Assembly: GCF_001427385.1 (NCBI RefSeq)
Contig: NZ_LMGJ01000001.1
Location: 366,377 to 430,376, forward strand
Length of the DNA stretch: 64,000 bases
Reading direction: 5' to 3'
Source: Mesorhizobium sp. Root157
Lineage (GTDB): Bacteria; Pseudomonadota; Alphaproteobacteria; Rhizobiales; Rhizobiaceae
In this document: positions 13,426 to 56,854 of the stretch, piece by piece
Layout of the letters: every line of letters begins with the position of its first letter
Position numbering within the stretch: position 1 is the stretch's first letter
Translations under genes and position numbers: made by a program
The notes under the pieces: generated by a model
The model's input: only the letters and a program-made list of their open reading frames with translations
Database searches by the model: none
Told to the model about the DNA's origin: nothing

Positions 13426-14409
13426 GTGCTGTTCAATTCCCAGGCCTTTGAACGATACCGGCGTTCTCCGAACGACAAAACGACGCTCCTGCGCATCATC
13501 CTGGGCGTAGCGATCGTCATGGTCGCCTGGGCGAGCTCGACTTTGATCATGGTTGCGGCCGGCGCCTATATCCACGCCACGCAATCGGCCGATGCCGGCG
13601 AAGCCGTGAGGCCGAACGTCATGGAAAGCTTCATGGCGTCGCCGGCAGGCATCCTCACCGCGCTTCTGTCCTTCGCCGGTATCTGGCTCGGCGTCTGGAT
13701 CGCCATGAGGTGGGTGCACCGCGAACGGATCACCGCATTGTTCGGCAACAGCCGCCGCATTTCCCGCGACGCTTTCCTCAAGGGCTTTGTTGCCGTCGTC
13801 ATCACCTCGCTTTTGTCGGAAGTGCTGCTTTACCTGCTGCGGCCCGAGATCGGGCGTGGATCGATCCCCATCGGCTCCTGGCTGCTTTTCCTCGTTCCGA
13901 TCTGCCTTCTGACCTTTGTGCAGACGTCATCGGAGGAACTGCTGTTTCGCGGCTACCTGCCACGCGGGCTTGCCAAGCTGTTTCGCAGTCCGGTGATCTG
14001 GGGCCTGTTGCCGCTTGTCGTGTTCACGTCGCTGCACTGGAGCCCGACAACAAACTCTTCGATGAACATGGCCGGCCTTGGCGCCATCGGCGCGTTCGCG
14101 CTGGTGCTGATGGTCCTTGTCTACGCGACCGGCAATCTCGGCGCGGCGTTCGGCGCCCACCTCGGCAACAACCTGTTCGGATTCCTGCTGATCTCGCATC
14201 AGGAAAGCTACAATGCCTTCGCCCTGTTCACGGCGGCTCCCCTGGAAGGTCCCGGTTGGGGCTCCAGCGACGCGTTGCTCATCACCGCGATCGGCATCAT
14301 CTCAAGCGCGCTGACGCTGCTTTTGCTGGTGCATCCCCGGTCGTTCCTGCGGGTCGCACCTGACCTTGCGCCGGCAGGCGAACAGGGCGCATCGTCAGCG
14401 CCAGCTTGA
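13426..14409 (+). CDS. CPBP-family intramembrane metalloprotease
   Basis: This 327-residue polytopic membrane protein has about eight hydrophobic segments. The CPBP (Abi) motifs are the EExxxR element in TSSEELLFRGYLPRGL (about residue 170), the HW motif in FTSLHWSPTTNSSMNMAG and the HxxxN motif in AAFGAHLGNNLFGF. Together they would hold a metal for proteolysis within the membrane. Members process prenylated proteins, bacteriocins or regulators, and the substrate here cannot be told. The frame opens with a GTG at 13426 (LFNSQAFERYRR follows), and I see no better ATG in frame. The 250-bp region behind it holds the candidate RNA before ffh. Confidence 0.87.
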   Translation: MLFNSQAFERYRRSPNDKTTLLRIILGVAIVMVAWASSTLIMVAAGAYIHATQSADAGEAVRPNVMESFMASPAGILTALLSFAGIWLGVWIAMRWVHRERITALFGNSRRISRDAFLKGFVAVVITSLLSEVLLYLLRPEIGRGSIPIGSWLLFLVPICLLTFVQTSSEELLFRGYLPRGLAKLFRSPVIWGLLPLVVFTSLHWSPTTNSSMNMAGLGAIGAFALVLMVLVYATGNLGAAFGAHLGNNLFGFLLISHQESYNAFALFTAAPLEGPGWGSSDALLITAIGIISSALTLLLLVHPRSFLRVAPDLAPAGEQGASSAPA

Positions 14410-14440
14410 CTCTGGCGTAATTTTCCTGTCTACAGCGCGC

Positions 14441-14565
14441 AAATTCCGCGACGAGTTTTTCTCCGAGCAAGCCGACCGGGACGCGAAGCCTCTCTTGAGG
14501 TGAACGCCGTAAATCGATCCTGGAGGCCAACACCCGGCAGCGCAATGCGCCCCCGGGTGCTTTTT
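14441..14565 (+). ncRNA. Candidate structured RNA or ffh leader ending in an intrinsic terminator
   Basis: No ORF covers this stretch. A possible sigma-70-like promoter (TTGACT 14406-14411, 17 bp, TCTACA 14429-14434) would start an RNA near 14441. CCTC (14489-14492) can pair with GAGG (14497-14500) or, extended by one base, GCCTC (14488-14492) with GAGGC (14523-14527), a mutually exclusive choice. The end is a hairpin CACCCGG (14531-14537) / CCGGGTG (14553-14559) with an inner GCGC/GCGC stem, then C and five T. This could be a trans-acting small RNA, an attenuator leader of ffh, or only the CPBP terminator. It lacks the conserved SRP RNA core. Confidence 0.45.
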
Positions 14566-14662
14566 GGCTTTGGGTTTTTTGCCCGATGGTTTTGCTTGGA
14601 CGCTTGGCGCAGACGCACTACCTTTCCGGCATCATCCGGGTGCCTGGGAAAAAGGGAAAAGA

Positions 14663-16225
14663 ATGTTCGAGAGCTTACAAGAACGGCTTGGTTCCATTCT
14701 GAACGGCCTGACCGGCCGTGGCGCGCTGTCGGAGGCTGATGTCGCCGCAGCACTTCGCGAAGTGCGCCGCGCGCTGCTGGAAGCCGACGTGGCGCTGGAA
14801 GTGGTGCGCTCCTTCACCGACAAGGTGCGCGACAAGGCCGTTGGCGCCGACGTGCTGAAGTCGATCAAGCCCGGCCAGATGGTCGTCAAGATCGTCCACG
14901 ACGAACTGGTCGAGATGCTCGGCGCCGAGGGCGTGGCCATCGACCTCAACGCGCCCGCCCCGGTCGTCATCATGATGGTCGGCCTGCAAGGATCGGGCAA
15001 GACCACCACCTCCGCCAAGATCGCCAAGCGCCTGACCGACCGCCAGAACAAGAAGGTTCTGATGGCCTCGCTCGACACGCGCCGTCCCGCCGCGCAGGAG
15101 CAGTTGCGCCAGTTGGGCGAGCAGACGAAGGTCGCCACCTTGCCGGTCATCGCCGGCCAGACGCCGGTCGACATCGCCAAGCGCGCCGTGCAGGCCGCCA
15201 AGCTCGGCGGCCATGACGTTGTCATCCTCGATACCGCAGGCCGCACCCATATCGACGAGCCGCTGATGGTCGAGATGGCGGACATCAAGAAGATGTCCGC
15301 ACCGCACGAAATCCTGCTGGTCGCCGATTCGCTGACCGGCCAGGACGCCGTCAATCTGGCCAAGAGTTTCGATGAGCGCGTCGGCATCACCGGCCTTGTG
15401 CTGACCCGCATGGACGGCGACGGCCGCGGCGGCGCCGCCCTTTCCATGCGCGCCGTCACCGGCAAGCCGATCAAGCTGATCGGCACCGGCGAAAAGATGG
15501 ATGCGCTGGAGGAGTTCTATCCCAAGCGCATCGCCGACCGCATCCTCGGCATGGGCGACATCGTCTCGCTGGTGGAAAAAGCCGCCGAAAACATCGACGC
15601 CGAACAGGCGGCGGCGATGGCGAAAAAGATGCAGTCGGGCAAGTTCGACCTCAACGACCTTGCCGGACAGTTGCAGCAGATGTCGAAAATGGGCGGCATG
15701 GGCGGCATCATGGGCATGATGCCCGGCATGGGCAAGATGAAGGACCAGATGGCCGCGGCCGGCCTCGACGACAAGATGTTCGGGCGCCAGCTCGCCATCA
15801 TCTCTTCGATGACCAGGGCCGAGCGCGCCAATCCCGATATGCTCAAGCACAGCCGCAAGAAGCGTATCGCTGCCGGTTCCGGCACCGATGCGGCCGAGAT
15901 CAACAAGTTGCTCAAGATGCATCGCGGCATGGCCGACATGATGAAGGCCATGGGCGGCAAGGGCAAAGGCGGCGGCATGATGCGCTCCATGATGGGCGGG
16001 CTCGCTTCGAAGATGGGGCTTGGCGGCATGGGCGGCATGCCGGATCTGTCGAAGATGGATCCCAAGCAGATTGAGGCGCTCAAGAAGCAGGCCGAGGCGG
16101 CTGGTTTCGGCAAGGGCCTGCCCAAAGGCATGCCAGGCGGATTGCCCGGCCTTGGCGGTGGCGGGTTGCCGGGCCTTCCAGGCGGCGGACTTCCAGGGCT
16201 GCCCGGCCTCGGCAAGAAGAAGTGA
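14663..16225 (+). CDS. ffh: Signal recognition particle protein Ffh
   Basis: This 520-residue GTPase binds signal sequences of nascent inner-membrane proteins and docks at FtsY together with 4.5S RNA. In order: an N-domain helical bundle (MFESLQERLGSILNGLTGRG), G1 VGLQGSGKTTTSAKIA, the DTRRPAAQEQL insertion, G3 LDTAGRTHID and G4 TRMDGDGRGGAALS. A Met-rich M domain follows (from about residue 330; GGIMGMMPGMGKMKDQM), with the RNA-binding SMTRAERANPDMLKHSRKKR segment. The tail is a Gly-Leu-Pro repeat (LPGLGGGGLPGLPGGG) longer than in enterobacteria. The ATG at 14663 matches the conserved N-terminus. Chorismate mutase and rpsP follow closely. Confidence 0.97.
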   Translation: MFESLQERLGSILNGLTGRGALSEADVAAALREVRRALLEADVALEVVRSFTDKVRDKAVGADVLKSIKPGQMVVKIVHDELVEMLGAEGVAIDLNAPAPVVIMMVGLQGSGKTTTSAKIAKRLTDRQNKKVLMASLDTRRPAAQEQLRQLGEQTKVATLPVIAGQTPVDIAKRAVQAAKLGGHDVVILDTAGRTHIDEPLMVEMADIKKMSAPHEILLVADSLTGQDAVNLAKSFDERVGITGLVLTRMDGDGRGGAALSMRAVTGKPIKLIGTGEKMDALEEFYPKRIADRILGMGDIVSLVEKAAENIDAEQAAAMAKKMQSGKFDLNDLAGQLQQMSKMGGMGGIMGMMPGMGKMKDQMAAAGLDDKMFGRQLAIISSMTRAERANPDMLKHSRKKRIAAGSGTDAAEINKLLKMHRGMADMMKAMGGKGKGGGMMRSMMGGLASKMGLGGMGGMPDLSKMDPKQIEALKKQAEAAGFGKGLPKGMPGGLPGLGGGGLPGLPGGGLPGLPGLGKKK

Positions 16226-16232
16226 GGACGCG

Positions 16233-16559
16233 ATGAACGAAGAACAGGATACGTCCGTGGCGAGGAAAATGCTCGCCGAATACCGCGCCTCGATCGACAA
16301 TCTCGATGCGATCCTCATCCACACGCTGGCCGAGCGCTTCCGCTGCACCAAGGCTGTCGGCGTGCTCAAGGCCACGCATGGCCTGCCGCCGGCGGATCCG
16401 ACGCGGGAAGCCGAGCAGATCGAGCGGTTACGCCGGCTCGCCAAGGAAGCCAACCTCGATCCGGATTTCGCGGAAAAATTCCAGAATTTCGTCGTTCGCG
16501 AGGTGATCCGCCACCACGAACAGATCGCCGCCGCGAACGGCGCAACTCAAAACGGCTGA
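16233..16559 (+). CDS. Chorismate mutase (AroQ type)
   Basis: This 108-residue all-helical mutase converts chorismate to prephenate for phenylalanine and tyrosine synthesis. The first helix carries the active-site Arg in LAEYRASIDNLDAILIHTLA, followed by ERFRCTKAVGVLKATHGLPP. The end, FQNFVVREVIRHHEQIA, completes the AroQ fold. The size is that of a monofunctional enzyme without the prephenate dehydratase part found in enterobacterial PheA. It starts 7 bp after ffh and is followed 50 bp later by rpsP, an arrangement I recall from other Rhizobiales. Confidence 0.92.
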   Translation: MNEEQDTSVARKMLAEYRASIDNLDAILIHTLAERFRCTKAVGVLKATHGLPPADPTREAEQIERLRRLAKEANLDPDFAEKFQNFVVREVIRHHEQIAAANGATQNG

Positions 16560-16609: not shown

Positions 16610-17011
16610 ATGGCACTGAAGATCAGACTGGCCCGCGCGGGCTCGAAGAAGCGTCCTTACTACCACATCGTCGTTGCCGACGTGCGCTCGCCGCGCGACG
16701 GCCGCTTCATCGAAGCGATCGGCGCCTGGAACCCGCTGCTGCCGAAGGATGGCGACCGCATCAAGATCGACGCCGATCGCGTCAAGCATTGGCTGGGCCA
16801 CGGAGCGGTGCCGACCGACCGCGTCGCCCGCTTCCTCGACCAGGCTGGTCTGGCCAAGCGTGAAGTCCGCAGCAATCCGACCAAGGCGCTCCCCGGCAAG
16901 AAGGCCCAGGAACGCGACGCCCTGCTGAAGAAGGCACAAGAGGAAGCCGCAGCCGCGCTTGCCGCTGCCTCTGCGCCTGCCGAGGCTCCTGCGGAAGCGA
17001 CCGCCGAGTAA
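16610..17011 (+). CDS. rpsP: 30S ribosomal protein S16
   Basis: This 133-residue protein of the small ribosomal subunit starts with the invariant [20 protein letters not shown] and contains [20 protein letters not shown] and the [19 protein letters not shown] core. After about residue 85 it has an Ala/Glu/Lys-rich tail typical of alphaproteobacterial S16. The RBS AGGAGAAAG lies just upstream of the ATG. In most bacteria rimM and trmD follow rpsP directly. Here a hairpin and repeats follow instead, and rimM-trmD lie near 56 kb on the other strand. Confidence 0.97.
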
Positions 17012-17291: not shown

Positions 17292-17639
17292 TCAGTAGTA
17301 CGGATCATAGCGATCGTCGTACCGGGCTGGATAACGGCGGTCGTTATAGCGGCTCGAATAATAGCGATCATTGTAGTCCCGAGGGCAGGCCGCCACATAG
17401 ACCCGGCCATAGCGGTCTCGGTAACGGCACCTGTTCGGCTCGTTGGCCTGGCCGATCAGGGCACCGGCCACGGCGCCCACCGCGCCACCGACGAGCGCTC
17501 CTTCCGCCCGATTGCCGGGTGATGCCACGGCACTGCCGATCGCCGCGCCGCCCAGGCCGCCGATCGCCGCGCCCTGCTCGGTCTGGGAACAGGCGCCGAG
17601 CGGCAAAAGCAATGCCATCAACACAACTAACTTCTTCAT
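17292..17639 (-). CDS. Glycine-zipper outer-membrane lipoprotein
   Basis: This 115-residue lipoprotein starts at the ATG at 17639 with signal MKKLVVLMALLLPLGAC, whose cysteine is the lipidation site. A glycine-zipper region follows (AAIGGLGGAAIGSAVAS and GALVGGAVGAVAGALIGQA), forming two tightly packed helices as in SlyB/Rcp-type proteins. The tail is rich in Tyr, Arg and Asp (RYPARYDDRYDPYY) with two Cys residues that could form a disulfide. Such proteins are thought to stabilise the outer membrane under stress. The shadow start at 17657 only adds six residues before the signal. Confidence 0.82.
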   Translation of the reverse strand: MKKLVVLMALLLPLGACSQTEQGAAIGGLGGAAIGSAVASPGNRAEGALVGGAVGAVAGALIGQANEPNRCRYRDRYGRVYVAACPRDYNDRYYSSRYNDRRYPARYDDRYDPYY

Positions 17640-17906
17640 CGGACTTACCTCTCGCAAGCGGAATATCCATCCTCGCCGCCACGCCCATAACGAACGAAAC
17701 GAGGATTCGATCCGAACAAGGCCAATCGAGGGCGATGATTCCAGCAGTTATTTCAGGAACCGGGCCCGAAAACCGGCCGCCGATCAGTCTTTGCCGAAGC
17801 ATGCCAGGGCAGGCCTAGACGGATTTCCTATTCCTGTCGGCGGTTTTATCAAGCATTCTGCTGTCTGGCCCGCATGCTTGACGGGCTGCATTCAAGGGAG
17901 GACTGC

Positions 17907-44161: not shown

Positions 44162-44220
44162 CGGCGCCTCCTTCGTTCAAACAATTAAGGGAATTGAGGC
44201 GCCGGGAGTTCCCGAAAGCA

Positions 44221-44310
44221 TCTAATCCCTCCGCCGGTACAAGCCGGATCAGGTTCAGCGGGTTGGCATTTTGCCTCTCAGCCGGTCCGCATGACGCGTC
44301 CGGCACCCCG
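44221..44310 (-). promoter_or_regulatory. TPP (THI-box) riboswitch of thiBPQ
   Basis: Read on the minus strand, GGGGTGCC (44309-44302) opens P1/P2. GCTGAGAGGC and the THI-box core CTGAACCTGATCCGG follow, then ACCGGCGGAGGGATTAG closes it. These are the conserved bases that bind the pyrimidine and pyrophosphate of TPP. It ends about 60 nt before the thiB start. With TPP bound it should switch off thiBPQ, probably by blocking translation start since no terminator is obvious. Confidence 0.95.
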
Positions 44311-44412
44311 TTAGAGCGTTTTGACACATAGTCCGCGATGACCGGCCATGCAAGAGCAGCTTGCTTGTGTCGGACTTCCGTTCTGTCATGGGGGCTGCTA
44401 AGGGCCTCGCCC

Positions 44413-55550: not shown

Positions 55551-56237
55551 TCACGCCTTGCCGAGCAAATCCGGTCGCCGTTCCCGTGTCAGGCGCTCTG
55601 CCTGGCCTCGCCGCCAGGCTGCGATCTTGGCGTGATTGCCGGAGACCAGCACCTCGGGAATAGGCTGCCCTTCGAACTCCTGCGGCCGTGTATAGTGCGG
55701 GTGTTCCAGGAGCCCGTGCTCGAAGCTTTCCTCCTCGCCCGATTGTTCGTTGCCCATGACGCCGGGCAGCAGGCGCACGATCGCATCGAGCAACACCAGA
55801 GCCGCCGGTTCGCCGCCTGAGAGAATATAATCGCCGATCGAGACTTCCTCGAGATCGCGCGCCTCGATCAGCCGCTGGTCGACACCTTCGAAGCGTCCGC
55901 AAACAACGACGACACCGGGACCGGAGGCCAGTTCGCGCACCCTCGCCTGGGCCAGCGGCCTGCCGCGCGGACTCATCAGGAGGCGCGGACGCGGATCGCC
56001 TTGCGGGGCCGTACTGTCAATGGCGCGGGCAAGCACGTCGGCGCGCATGACCATGCCGGCGCCACCGCCGGCAGGTGTATCATCCACCGTGCGATGGCGA
56101 TCGGTGGCGAAGTCGCGAATCTGGACCGCCTCAAGCGACCAGGTGCCGCCCCCCAGGGCACGCCCGGCGAGCGAAAGCCCGAGTGCGCCCGGAAACATTT
56201 CCGGATAGAGCGTCAGCACGGACGCGGCAAAGCTCAC
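55551..56237 (-). CDS. trmD: tRNA (guanine-37-N1)-methyltransferase
   Basis: This 228-residue SPOUT enzyme methylates G37 next to the anticodon to prevent frameshifting. [20 protein letters not shown] is the N-terminus, with [20 protein letters not shown], the knot region [20 protein letters not shown], and [20 protein letters not shown] binding S-adenosylmethionine. The C-terminus [20 protein letters not shown] binds tRNA. The start is a GTG overlapping the rimM stop as GTGA. The usual downstream partner rplS is absent, since rpoH2 converges here. Confidence 0.95.
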
Positions 56238-56854
56238 CGGTTGCCTCCGGAATCCTTCGGTCCGCGCGGGCGGCGTTTTGCATCGAAACCGTCACGCCCC
56301 GGCTCCGTTTCGATGTCCGGCTCGCCATCGCCGTCCTCATCCTCGACCAACCCGGCGGCAACCGTATCGATACGTACGAAGCCGGCGGCAATCGAAACTT
56401 CCGGAACCGCTGCCAGCGTAAAGGGAATAAGCACGCCCTTGCGGCTGCCAACCATCAGGTCGAGAATATCGCCACCACCGAAATTCTGCACTGCCAGCAC
56501 CTTGCCAATGGTCGCGCCGGTTTCGTCCTTGACGGCAAGGCCGATCAGATCGGCCTGGTAGAACTCGTCTTCCTCGACCGTTTCGGGCAGTACGGAACGG
56601 TCGACGAAAAGCTCGGTGCCGGTCAGAGTTTCCGCCGCGTTACGGCTGTCTATGCCCTTGAAACGCACCACCGCAACGTTGCCAGCCGGCCTTATGCTCG
56701 TGATCTCGAAGCTGCGGCCATCTTTGGACGACAGCGGCCCGTAGTCGCCGAGCGCCTCGGGTGCGCCGGTAAAGGTCTTGACGCGCAGTTCTCCCTTGAT
56801 GCCGTGCGCGGCTCCGATGACGGCCATCTGGACGGGGTTGTTAAGCTTGGGCAT
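56234..56854 (-). CDS. rimM: Ribosome maturation factor RimM
   Basis: This 206-residue factor binds S19 and helps mature the 30S head. The N-terminal beta-barrel starts [20 protein letters not shown]. The PRC-barrel domain includes [40 protein letters not shown] and [20 protein letters not shown]. An acidic, Arg-containing extension follows. I chose the ATG at 56854 (MPKLNNPVQ); others at 56878 and 56827 are possible. Its normal upstream neighbour rpsP is about 39 kb away on the other strand. Confidence 0.94.

Follow-up and report, generated by a model that had tools for sequence, protein, structure and literature searches.

The ffh motif (RF01793) as a probable leader RNA of the ffh-rpsP operon in Alphaproteobacteria, with ribosomal protein S16 as a candidate ligand

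The ffh motif was published in 2009 by Meyer et al. as a single bulged hairpin, located nearly always before ffh, with its function unproven (PMC2704228). It was seen in this position in Pelagibacter, Rhodobacterales, Sphingomonadales and Rhizobiales, and was reported to be absent from the sequenced Rhodospirillales and Caulobacterales; its discoverers suggested that it may regulate ffh and remarked that it is unlike the bound part of 4.5S RNA (PMC2704228). The same place in the genome of Sinorhizobium meliloti (dapF< ffh>) is occupied by the candidate sRNA sm5, with a microarray signal, a sigma-70-type promoter, a predicted terminator and a predicted length of about 120 nt, although sm5 was treated as a candidate sRNA gene and its observed size was entered as 'not done' (PMC2573895). 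In addition, an 'ffH leader RNA' was expressed in Bartonella bacilliformis (PMC7717549), and a 441-nt sequence obtained by RNA-seq is given in a table as an RF01793 candidate of M. huakuii (PMC5596092). The label of this last candidate (MH_s5), IGR_Pb-19, is of the style used in that table for plasmid regions, which is odd for a hairpin preceding ffh.

Two other RNAs are relevant to this locus. The 4.5S or SRP RNA (RF00169) is the partner RNA of Ffh, the protein encoded downstream of the motif. In Flavobacteria, a leader has been proposed for S16, consisting of a structured RNA before rpsP, usually followed by rimM, with S16 as the proposed ligand (PMC7247131). The rule used for ribosomal-protein leaders in that work is that a leader controls the gene for its own ligand (PMC7247131). 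A 2024 review stated that there was no information on the regulation of the rpsP-rimM-trmD-rplS operon, a rare situation among ribosomal-protein operons (PMC10931766), and a link between RF01793 and the S16 operon was not found in titles and abstracts among the matches listed.

We analysed a stretch of 64,000 nucleotides of Mesorhizobium sp. Root157 (contig NZ_LMGJ01000001.1), hereafter the window, in which a structured stretch preceding ffh had been singled out by an initial annotation made from the letters alone. The features of this region are collected in the table.

Features of the leader region and its flanking genes (positions within the window)
Feature	Position	Strand	Basis
CPBP/Rce1-like gene upstream, outside the element	13426-14409	+	Pfam PF02517
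Putative leader promoter: TTGACT (14406-14411), 17 nt, TCTACA (14429-14434)	14406-14434	+	sequence reading
Helix P1: CCGGGA (14476-14481) with TCCTGG (14518-14523), around a genus-specific insert hairpin	14476-14523	+	in the MFE fold
Insert hairpin GCCTC/GAGGT in the P1 loop	14488-14501	+	possible in 34/45 distinct genus sequences
RF01793 'ffh sRNA' match	14516-14567	+	cmscan, 56.2 bits (gathering score 35), whole model 1-52
Hairpin P2: 7 bp, C.C (14538/14552), A.C (14539/14551), 4 bp, loop AAT	14531-14559	+	RNAalifold
U-rich tract TTTTT (14561-14565), then conserved GYUUUGG-like segment	14561-14573	+	downstream profile, 263 loci
ffh (SRP54)	14663-16225	+	Pfam PF00448, PF02978, PF02881
Chorismate mutase type II	16233-16559	+	Pfam PF01817
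rpsP, ribosomal protein S16	16610-17011	+	Pfam PF00886

A covariance-model search of Rfam, which had been proposed for this stretch, returned a match to the whole RF01793 model above its gathering score (E 5e-8 in 64 kb), and the element is thus an already known one. The minimum free energy fold of positions 14440-14570 consists of P1 and P2 (-50.3 kcal/mol, z -2.3, with 2/200 shuffles as good); together with the E value, this places the RNA far beyond chance. It has the sequence of the published ffh motif (P2: CACCCGG-CA-GCGC-AAT-GCGC-CC-CCGGGTG), its place before ffh and its hairpin with two bulge cytosines, here C14538 and C14552, whose columns are both invariant in 31/31 aligned sequences; counts from the hairpin parser used later in this study say nothing on the conservation of this C.C, as the parser requires it. 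The element shows no sequence or model match to SRP RNA, the partner RNA of Ffh: a search of the region gave no SRP RNA match, in agreement with the earlier statement that the stretch is not ffs, and the SRP RNA match of this genome lies on another contig. Beyond the description of Meyer et al., the present analysis adds a conserved promoter, a 3' segment and a probable second helix, extends the motif to about twice as many genomes of the class as are found by Rfam's model, and finds it retained before rpsP where ffh is missing.

The -35 box of the leader overlaps the stop codon of the CPBP/Rce1-like gene, the distance from promoter to P2 is 125 nt, and the ATG of ffh follows P2 after 103 nt, close to the 100 bp first noted. 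The stretch had been described as free of ORFs, but a mechanical list does give ORFs in it. After rpsP, the first gene to match Pfam (17292-17657) is on the opposite strand. Elsewhere in the window, a TPP riboswitch (RF00059, 69.4 bits) is located at 44209-44320 on the minus strand.

With Rfam's model, the element was detected in 99/99 genomes of the genus, 183/199 of the order, 106/385 of the class (E 0.001) and 44/249 of a sample of the phylum, with the matches listed all from Alphaproteobacteria, and in 0/14 control genomes. A covariance model of our own, R1, was built from a 31-sequence alignment of P2 and its 3' flank and was only roughly calibrated; it matched 233/372 genomes of the class at E 0.01, 228 of these at 0.001 or below, in a class sample that differs slightly from the one searched with Rfam's model. 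The other 139/372 genomes had no R1 match, as judged by the model score alone. All 40 of the newly found strong R1 matches that were fetched stand before ffh, and of the 70 weak matches read (from 75 genomes), 68 stand before ffh and 2 before rpsP. The loci read also cover 104 of the 106 class genomes matched by Rfam's model (G172 and G339 were left out) and part of the order and genus matches; a group of R1 matches with E values of about 8e-12 to 2e-10 was left out. As a rule there is one match per genome. Second R1 matches occur in 16 genomes; most of these, with E values of 9e-6 to 0.009, are weak and likely due to chance, whereas the strong ones, in G616, G007 and G354, are on separate contigs and may represent duplicate or foreign contigs.

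Hairpin P2 is strongly supported by covariation. In the alignment of 31 diverse sequences, RNAalifold gave 11 pairs without a broken cell, 10 of them with the compensatory changes that had been looked to as a check among relatives. Paired cells amounted to 94.1%, versus 76.0% in shuffled alignments, and the covariation score was 0.507 versus 0.161, figures that count the position adjoining the C.C mismatch as a pair. Similar values were obtained with 72 distinct sequences from named organisms (94.4% versus 76.6% paired, score 0.536 versus 0.204), in an alignment that was fitted to the model. For loci outside the genus, 12 of the 275 could not be parsed and are excluded from the profile, pair, promoter and P1 counts. 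In the 263 remaining, the position adjoining the C.C is AC in 103, CG in 100, GU in 16, GC in 15, UA in 12 and AA in 10, with few others, and the loop-proximal GCG/CGC pairs are near-fixed across the class.

The sequence following P2 is partly conserved. The profile of the 263 loci outside the genus reaches T85% at +4, 88% at +10 and 89% at +11, and a conserved segment resembling GYUUUGG or GUUGG is seen from +7 to +14. At least five T in the first 8 nt are found in 46/50 genus loci and 82/263 others, and a T-run of at least four in the first 10 nt in 121/263 loci outside the genus, suggesting that the T-run is mostly a feature of the genus and not a conserved property of the element. These data bear on the strong terminator originally read here: the hairpin and its TTTTT are indeed present, but with 4 terminator-like sites in 1.5 kb versus 2.2 expected, a count near chance, the site is unremarkable as a terminator alone. 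Attenuation at the T-run could operate in the genus.

A conserved promoter precedes the hairpin. TTGAC occurs 25-170 nt before P2 in 242/259 loci outside the genus (24/258 in the control stretch preceding this zone, 30/259 in shuffles), and TTGAC paired with a -10 box matching at four or more of its six positions in 161/259 (control 3/258, shuffles 9/259), mostly 71-110 nt before P2. All 50 genus loci have TTGAC, 44 of them with a -10 box (control stretch 17/50 and 0/50). The promoter TTGACT-17-TCTACA of the initial annotation is thus present and its -35 core conserved. A generic E. coli-type scan reported no promoter in the stretch, and a comparison of relatives was needed. A second, weak promoter had been suggested at 14595/14618, between hairpin and gene; however, TTGAC with a -10 box was found between P2 and the ATG in 0/135 loci (50 of them from the genus) having at least 60 nt there, and TTGAC alone in 17/135. 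As the promoter is conserved upstream and none was found between, a single promoter most likely serves both hairpin and operon, and ffh is most simply read from it.

By tblastn, ffh lies on the same strand in 249/255 loci, with a median of 63 nt from P2 to its start; this distance is below 40 nt in 61/249, and some loci leave less than 20 nt between element and start codon. The comparison gives helix P1 less support than P2. Stems of at least 5 bp were found in 201/261 loci versus 469/783 shuffles, a modest enrichment, with 160 distinct arm pairs among the 201, and an A.C mismatch is present in 5/37 aligned genus sequences. The two mutually exclusive pairings proposed for 14488-14492 can both be drawn, with 14497-14501 or with 14523-14527; yet this GCCTC segment, found in 28/45 distinct genus sequences, sits in an insert seen only in the genus, and there is thus no sign of a conserved switch.

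The most informative genomes are those in which the hairpin stands without ffh. Among the 325 loci read, the motif is followed by ffh in 319 and, in the other 6, from three families, by rpsP with no ffh between. Two of the 319 (L132 and L155) end soon after the motif and are counted as ffh from Ffh-like first residues, and two others (L299 and L474), in which tblastn with the Ffh of the window missed ffh, were settled from the translation. The 6/255 loci without an Ffh match by tblastn comprise the two contig ends (L132, L155) and four from one family of small genomes, in which the hairpin is directly before rpsP. This family (genomes G049, G174, G270 and G347, with loci L126, L115, L098 and L103) has bacteria of the PS1 clade and the OCS116 cluster as its close named relatives, represented by loci L401-L404.

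These four PS1 genomes are 93-97% complete, and in all four the element scores above the cut-off of Rfam's model (38.5-48.7 bits). PF00448, which covers both Ffh and FtsY, matched in 0/4 of them, and in 6/6 comparison genomes and 14/14 controls. The SRP RNA model RF00169 also matched in 0/4, and in 6/6 comparison genomes (one below the cut-off); as it found only 11 of the 14 controls, the missing 4.5S RNA carries less weight than the missing PF00448. A protein search of the PS1 genomes with the Ffh of the window gave no match, an empty answer that alone shows nothing. In OCS116 bacterium AG-390-A19 (L402), the order by Pfam domains is mtaB< dapF< [hairpin] >rpsP>rimM>trmD>rplS, with the name mtaB given to a radical SAM protein by its place, and leuC, leuD, leuB and asd-like frames, recognised from translations, lie further behind. 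Between the end of the model match (7983) and the start of rpsP (8001) there is no room for ffh. The usual location of ftsY is beside mtaB, and no FtsY-like frame was seen there in L402. Taken together, this clade appears, from its gene content, to have lost the SRP route, which has been called conserved in all living organisms (PMC7844537).

The hairpin of the PS1 clade is intact. In six distinct sequences, 66/66 pair cells are kept; both partners have changed in two pairs, and two pairs show G-U. This covariation is modest, given six sequences and two changed pairs, and 40/500 shuffles scored as high. A strong -35/-10 promoter pair is again readable before it (TTGACT, 17 nt, CTATAT). The two other families are represented by G089, with an intact 7+4 bp hairpin 69 nt before rpsP, a RimM-like frame beyond and a photolyase-like gene flanking the opposite side, and by G282, with the hairpin 299 nt before rpsP; in both, rpsP was found by tblastn, the other neighbours were recognised from translation, and the absence of ffh refers to the locus. 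As the PS1 clade keeps the hairpin intact with no detectable Ffh, FtsY or 4.5S RNA, the element is very probably independent of Ffh and the SRP.

In 80/80 genomes with motif and ffh, chosen for few contigs and with the six rpsP-only loci excluded, rpsP is found 1.4-3.7 kb downstream, on the contig and strand of the motif; no unlinked case exists among them, and this linkage therefore cannot separate S16 from Ffh. When loci of named organisms were fetched by their S16 gene, a model match (E up to 0.05) was found upstream of rpsP in 74/80. In 70 of the 74, ffh lies between the two (found by tblastn in 69 and by reading in L474), and in 4, from the PS1 clade, it does not; of the six named loci without a match, four have sequence that ends within 730 nt of rpsP, while two have a degenerate hairpin. 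In the latter, L418 and L420, this hairpin was recognised by eye before ffh and is not counted.

All of rimM, trmD and rplS follow rpsP in 51/74 named motif loci, a count lowered by contig ends. In the window, rimM and trmD are found at 55557-56842 on the minus strand, 39 kb from rpsP. No match to rplS was found within the 64 kb. The usual rpsP-rimM-trmD-rplS cluster is therefore split in this genome, and no ribosomal-protein gene other than that of S16 was seen behind the leader. Two features of a ribosomal-protein leader are found: a covarying RNA in the 5' UTR of a ribosomal-protein operon, one transcript being suggested by gene order, and a tie to the ribosomal-protein gene over its neighbours, seen in the 6/325 rpsP-only loci. 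The converse was not seen, nor could it have appeared among the 80 genomes with both genes linked.

In light of these comparisons, the stretch is very probably a cis-acting 5' leader RNA, serving the operon ffh-(chorismate mutase)-rpsP. The leader is most simply taken as protein-binding, since it lies in the 5' UTR, remains with the S16 operon where ffh has been lost, and has a conserved mismatch as well as loop-proximal pairs that are near-fixed across the class; we lean, by a little, towards a ribosomal-protein leader. S16 is the likeliest ligand, because a leader ligand is encoded by a regulated gene and rpsP is the only candidate seen, although S16 itself is put at slightly less than an even chance. 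For the whole explanation, an ffh-rpsP operon leader that is probably a ribosomal-protein leader with S16 as its likeliest ligand, we consider the chances evenly balanced. The earlier suggestion that the stretch senses the state of translation comes close to this ribosomal-protein-leader reading, and the initial annotation, which offered it beside others discussed below, was largely correct in its observation of the sequence. Compared with the S16 leader of Flavobacteria, to which it is likened by description only, the element belongs to another phylum and mostly has ffh between leader and rpsP (PMC7247131).

Under an S16-responsive leader, free S16, itself a product of the operon, would attach to the P1-P2 unit whenever it outnumbers 16S rRNA, and the bound leader would lower expression of the operon. 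Translation would be blocked where P2 adjoins the start codon and, in the genus, transcription might end prematurely at P2 and its U-tract. As ffh is the first gene of the operon, Ffh would be regulated along with S16. Two points speak against this reading. Some ribosomal-protein leaders resemble the site at which their protein binds rRNA, but in a crude scan against E. coli rRNA, P2 gave 7 hits in 16S (12.1 in shuffles) and 21 in 23S (17.9), showing no resemblance beyond chance. Retention in the PS1 clade, moreover, may stem from some other function of the leader in this operon and need not mean binding of a ribosomal protein.

An alternative hypothesis is that the hairpin sets the basal output of the operon without a protein ligand, as a partial terminator, a pause or a stabilising 5' structure. 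The U-rich sequence after P2, with T85% at +4 and at least five T in 8 nt at nearly all genus loci, and the reported transcripts of S. meliloti (sm5, PMC2573895) and Bartonella (PMC7717549) are consistent with such a role. However, a mere terminator or stabiliser needs no class-wide C.C, near-fixed GCG/CGC pairs or GYUUUGG segment, and less than half of the loci outside the genus have a T-run of at least four in the first 10 nt. We thus regard this hypothesis as unlikely, though a serious one.

Fairly improbable, in our estimation, is a leader that responds to L19, RimM or TrmD, or to a ligand encoded elsewhere. In published ribosomal leaders, the ligand is often encoded by a gene further down the operon than its first (PMC7247131), and the three genes do follow rpsP in most named motif loci; yet in the window rimM and trmD, distant and on the opposite strand, and rplS, with no match, would lie outside the unit of the leader.

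The initial annotation also allowed for an independent small RNA, and a trans-acting RNA placed before ffh by chance would account for the conserved promoter of its own, the terminator-like end in the genus, the annotation as sRNA in Rfam and the predicted length of sm5 of about 120 nt (PMC2573895). This idea fares poorly against the genome comparison: there is as a rule one match per genome, the same operon follows in 325/325 loci read, always beginning with ffh or rpsP, P2 lies less than 40 nt from the ffh start in 61/249 loci, the element at some loci being less than 20 nt from the start codon, and no TTGAC-type promoter with a -10 box intervenes in the 135 loci with room for one. We consider it quite improbable.

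A feedback element on which free Ffh acts, or more generally the sensor of secretion or SRP state once suggested here, would suit the position before ffh and the remark of the discoverers on ffh regulation (PMC2704228), but is very improbable given the intact hairpin in PS1 genomes with no detectable Ffh, FtsY or 4.5S RNA, the lack of an SRP RNA match in the region, and the non-significant R1 scores at five SRP RNA loci (best E 0.09, on the minus strand and outside the SRP RNA). Mimicry of the SRP RNA was rejected on the same searches of the region and of the SRP RNA loci.

Our analyses add to the description of 2009 that a natural loss of ffh at its own place separates RF01793 from Ffh and ties the element to the S16 operon, and RF01793 thereby becomes a directly testable candidate ribosomal-protein leader. 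We tentatively propose, at somewhat less than even confidence, that RF01793 acts throughout the class as an autoregulatory leader for S16, coupling the SRP protein to small-subunit assembly in Alphaproteobacteria, and that a marine clade which gave up the whole SRP route retained it solely for S16. If this is true, the gap in our knowledge of how the rpsP/trmD operon is regulated would be filled and a family without a function since 2009 would be explained, and it would suggest that the SRP protein and ribosome assembly are regulated together in a large class of bacteria.
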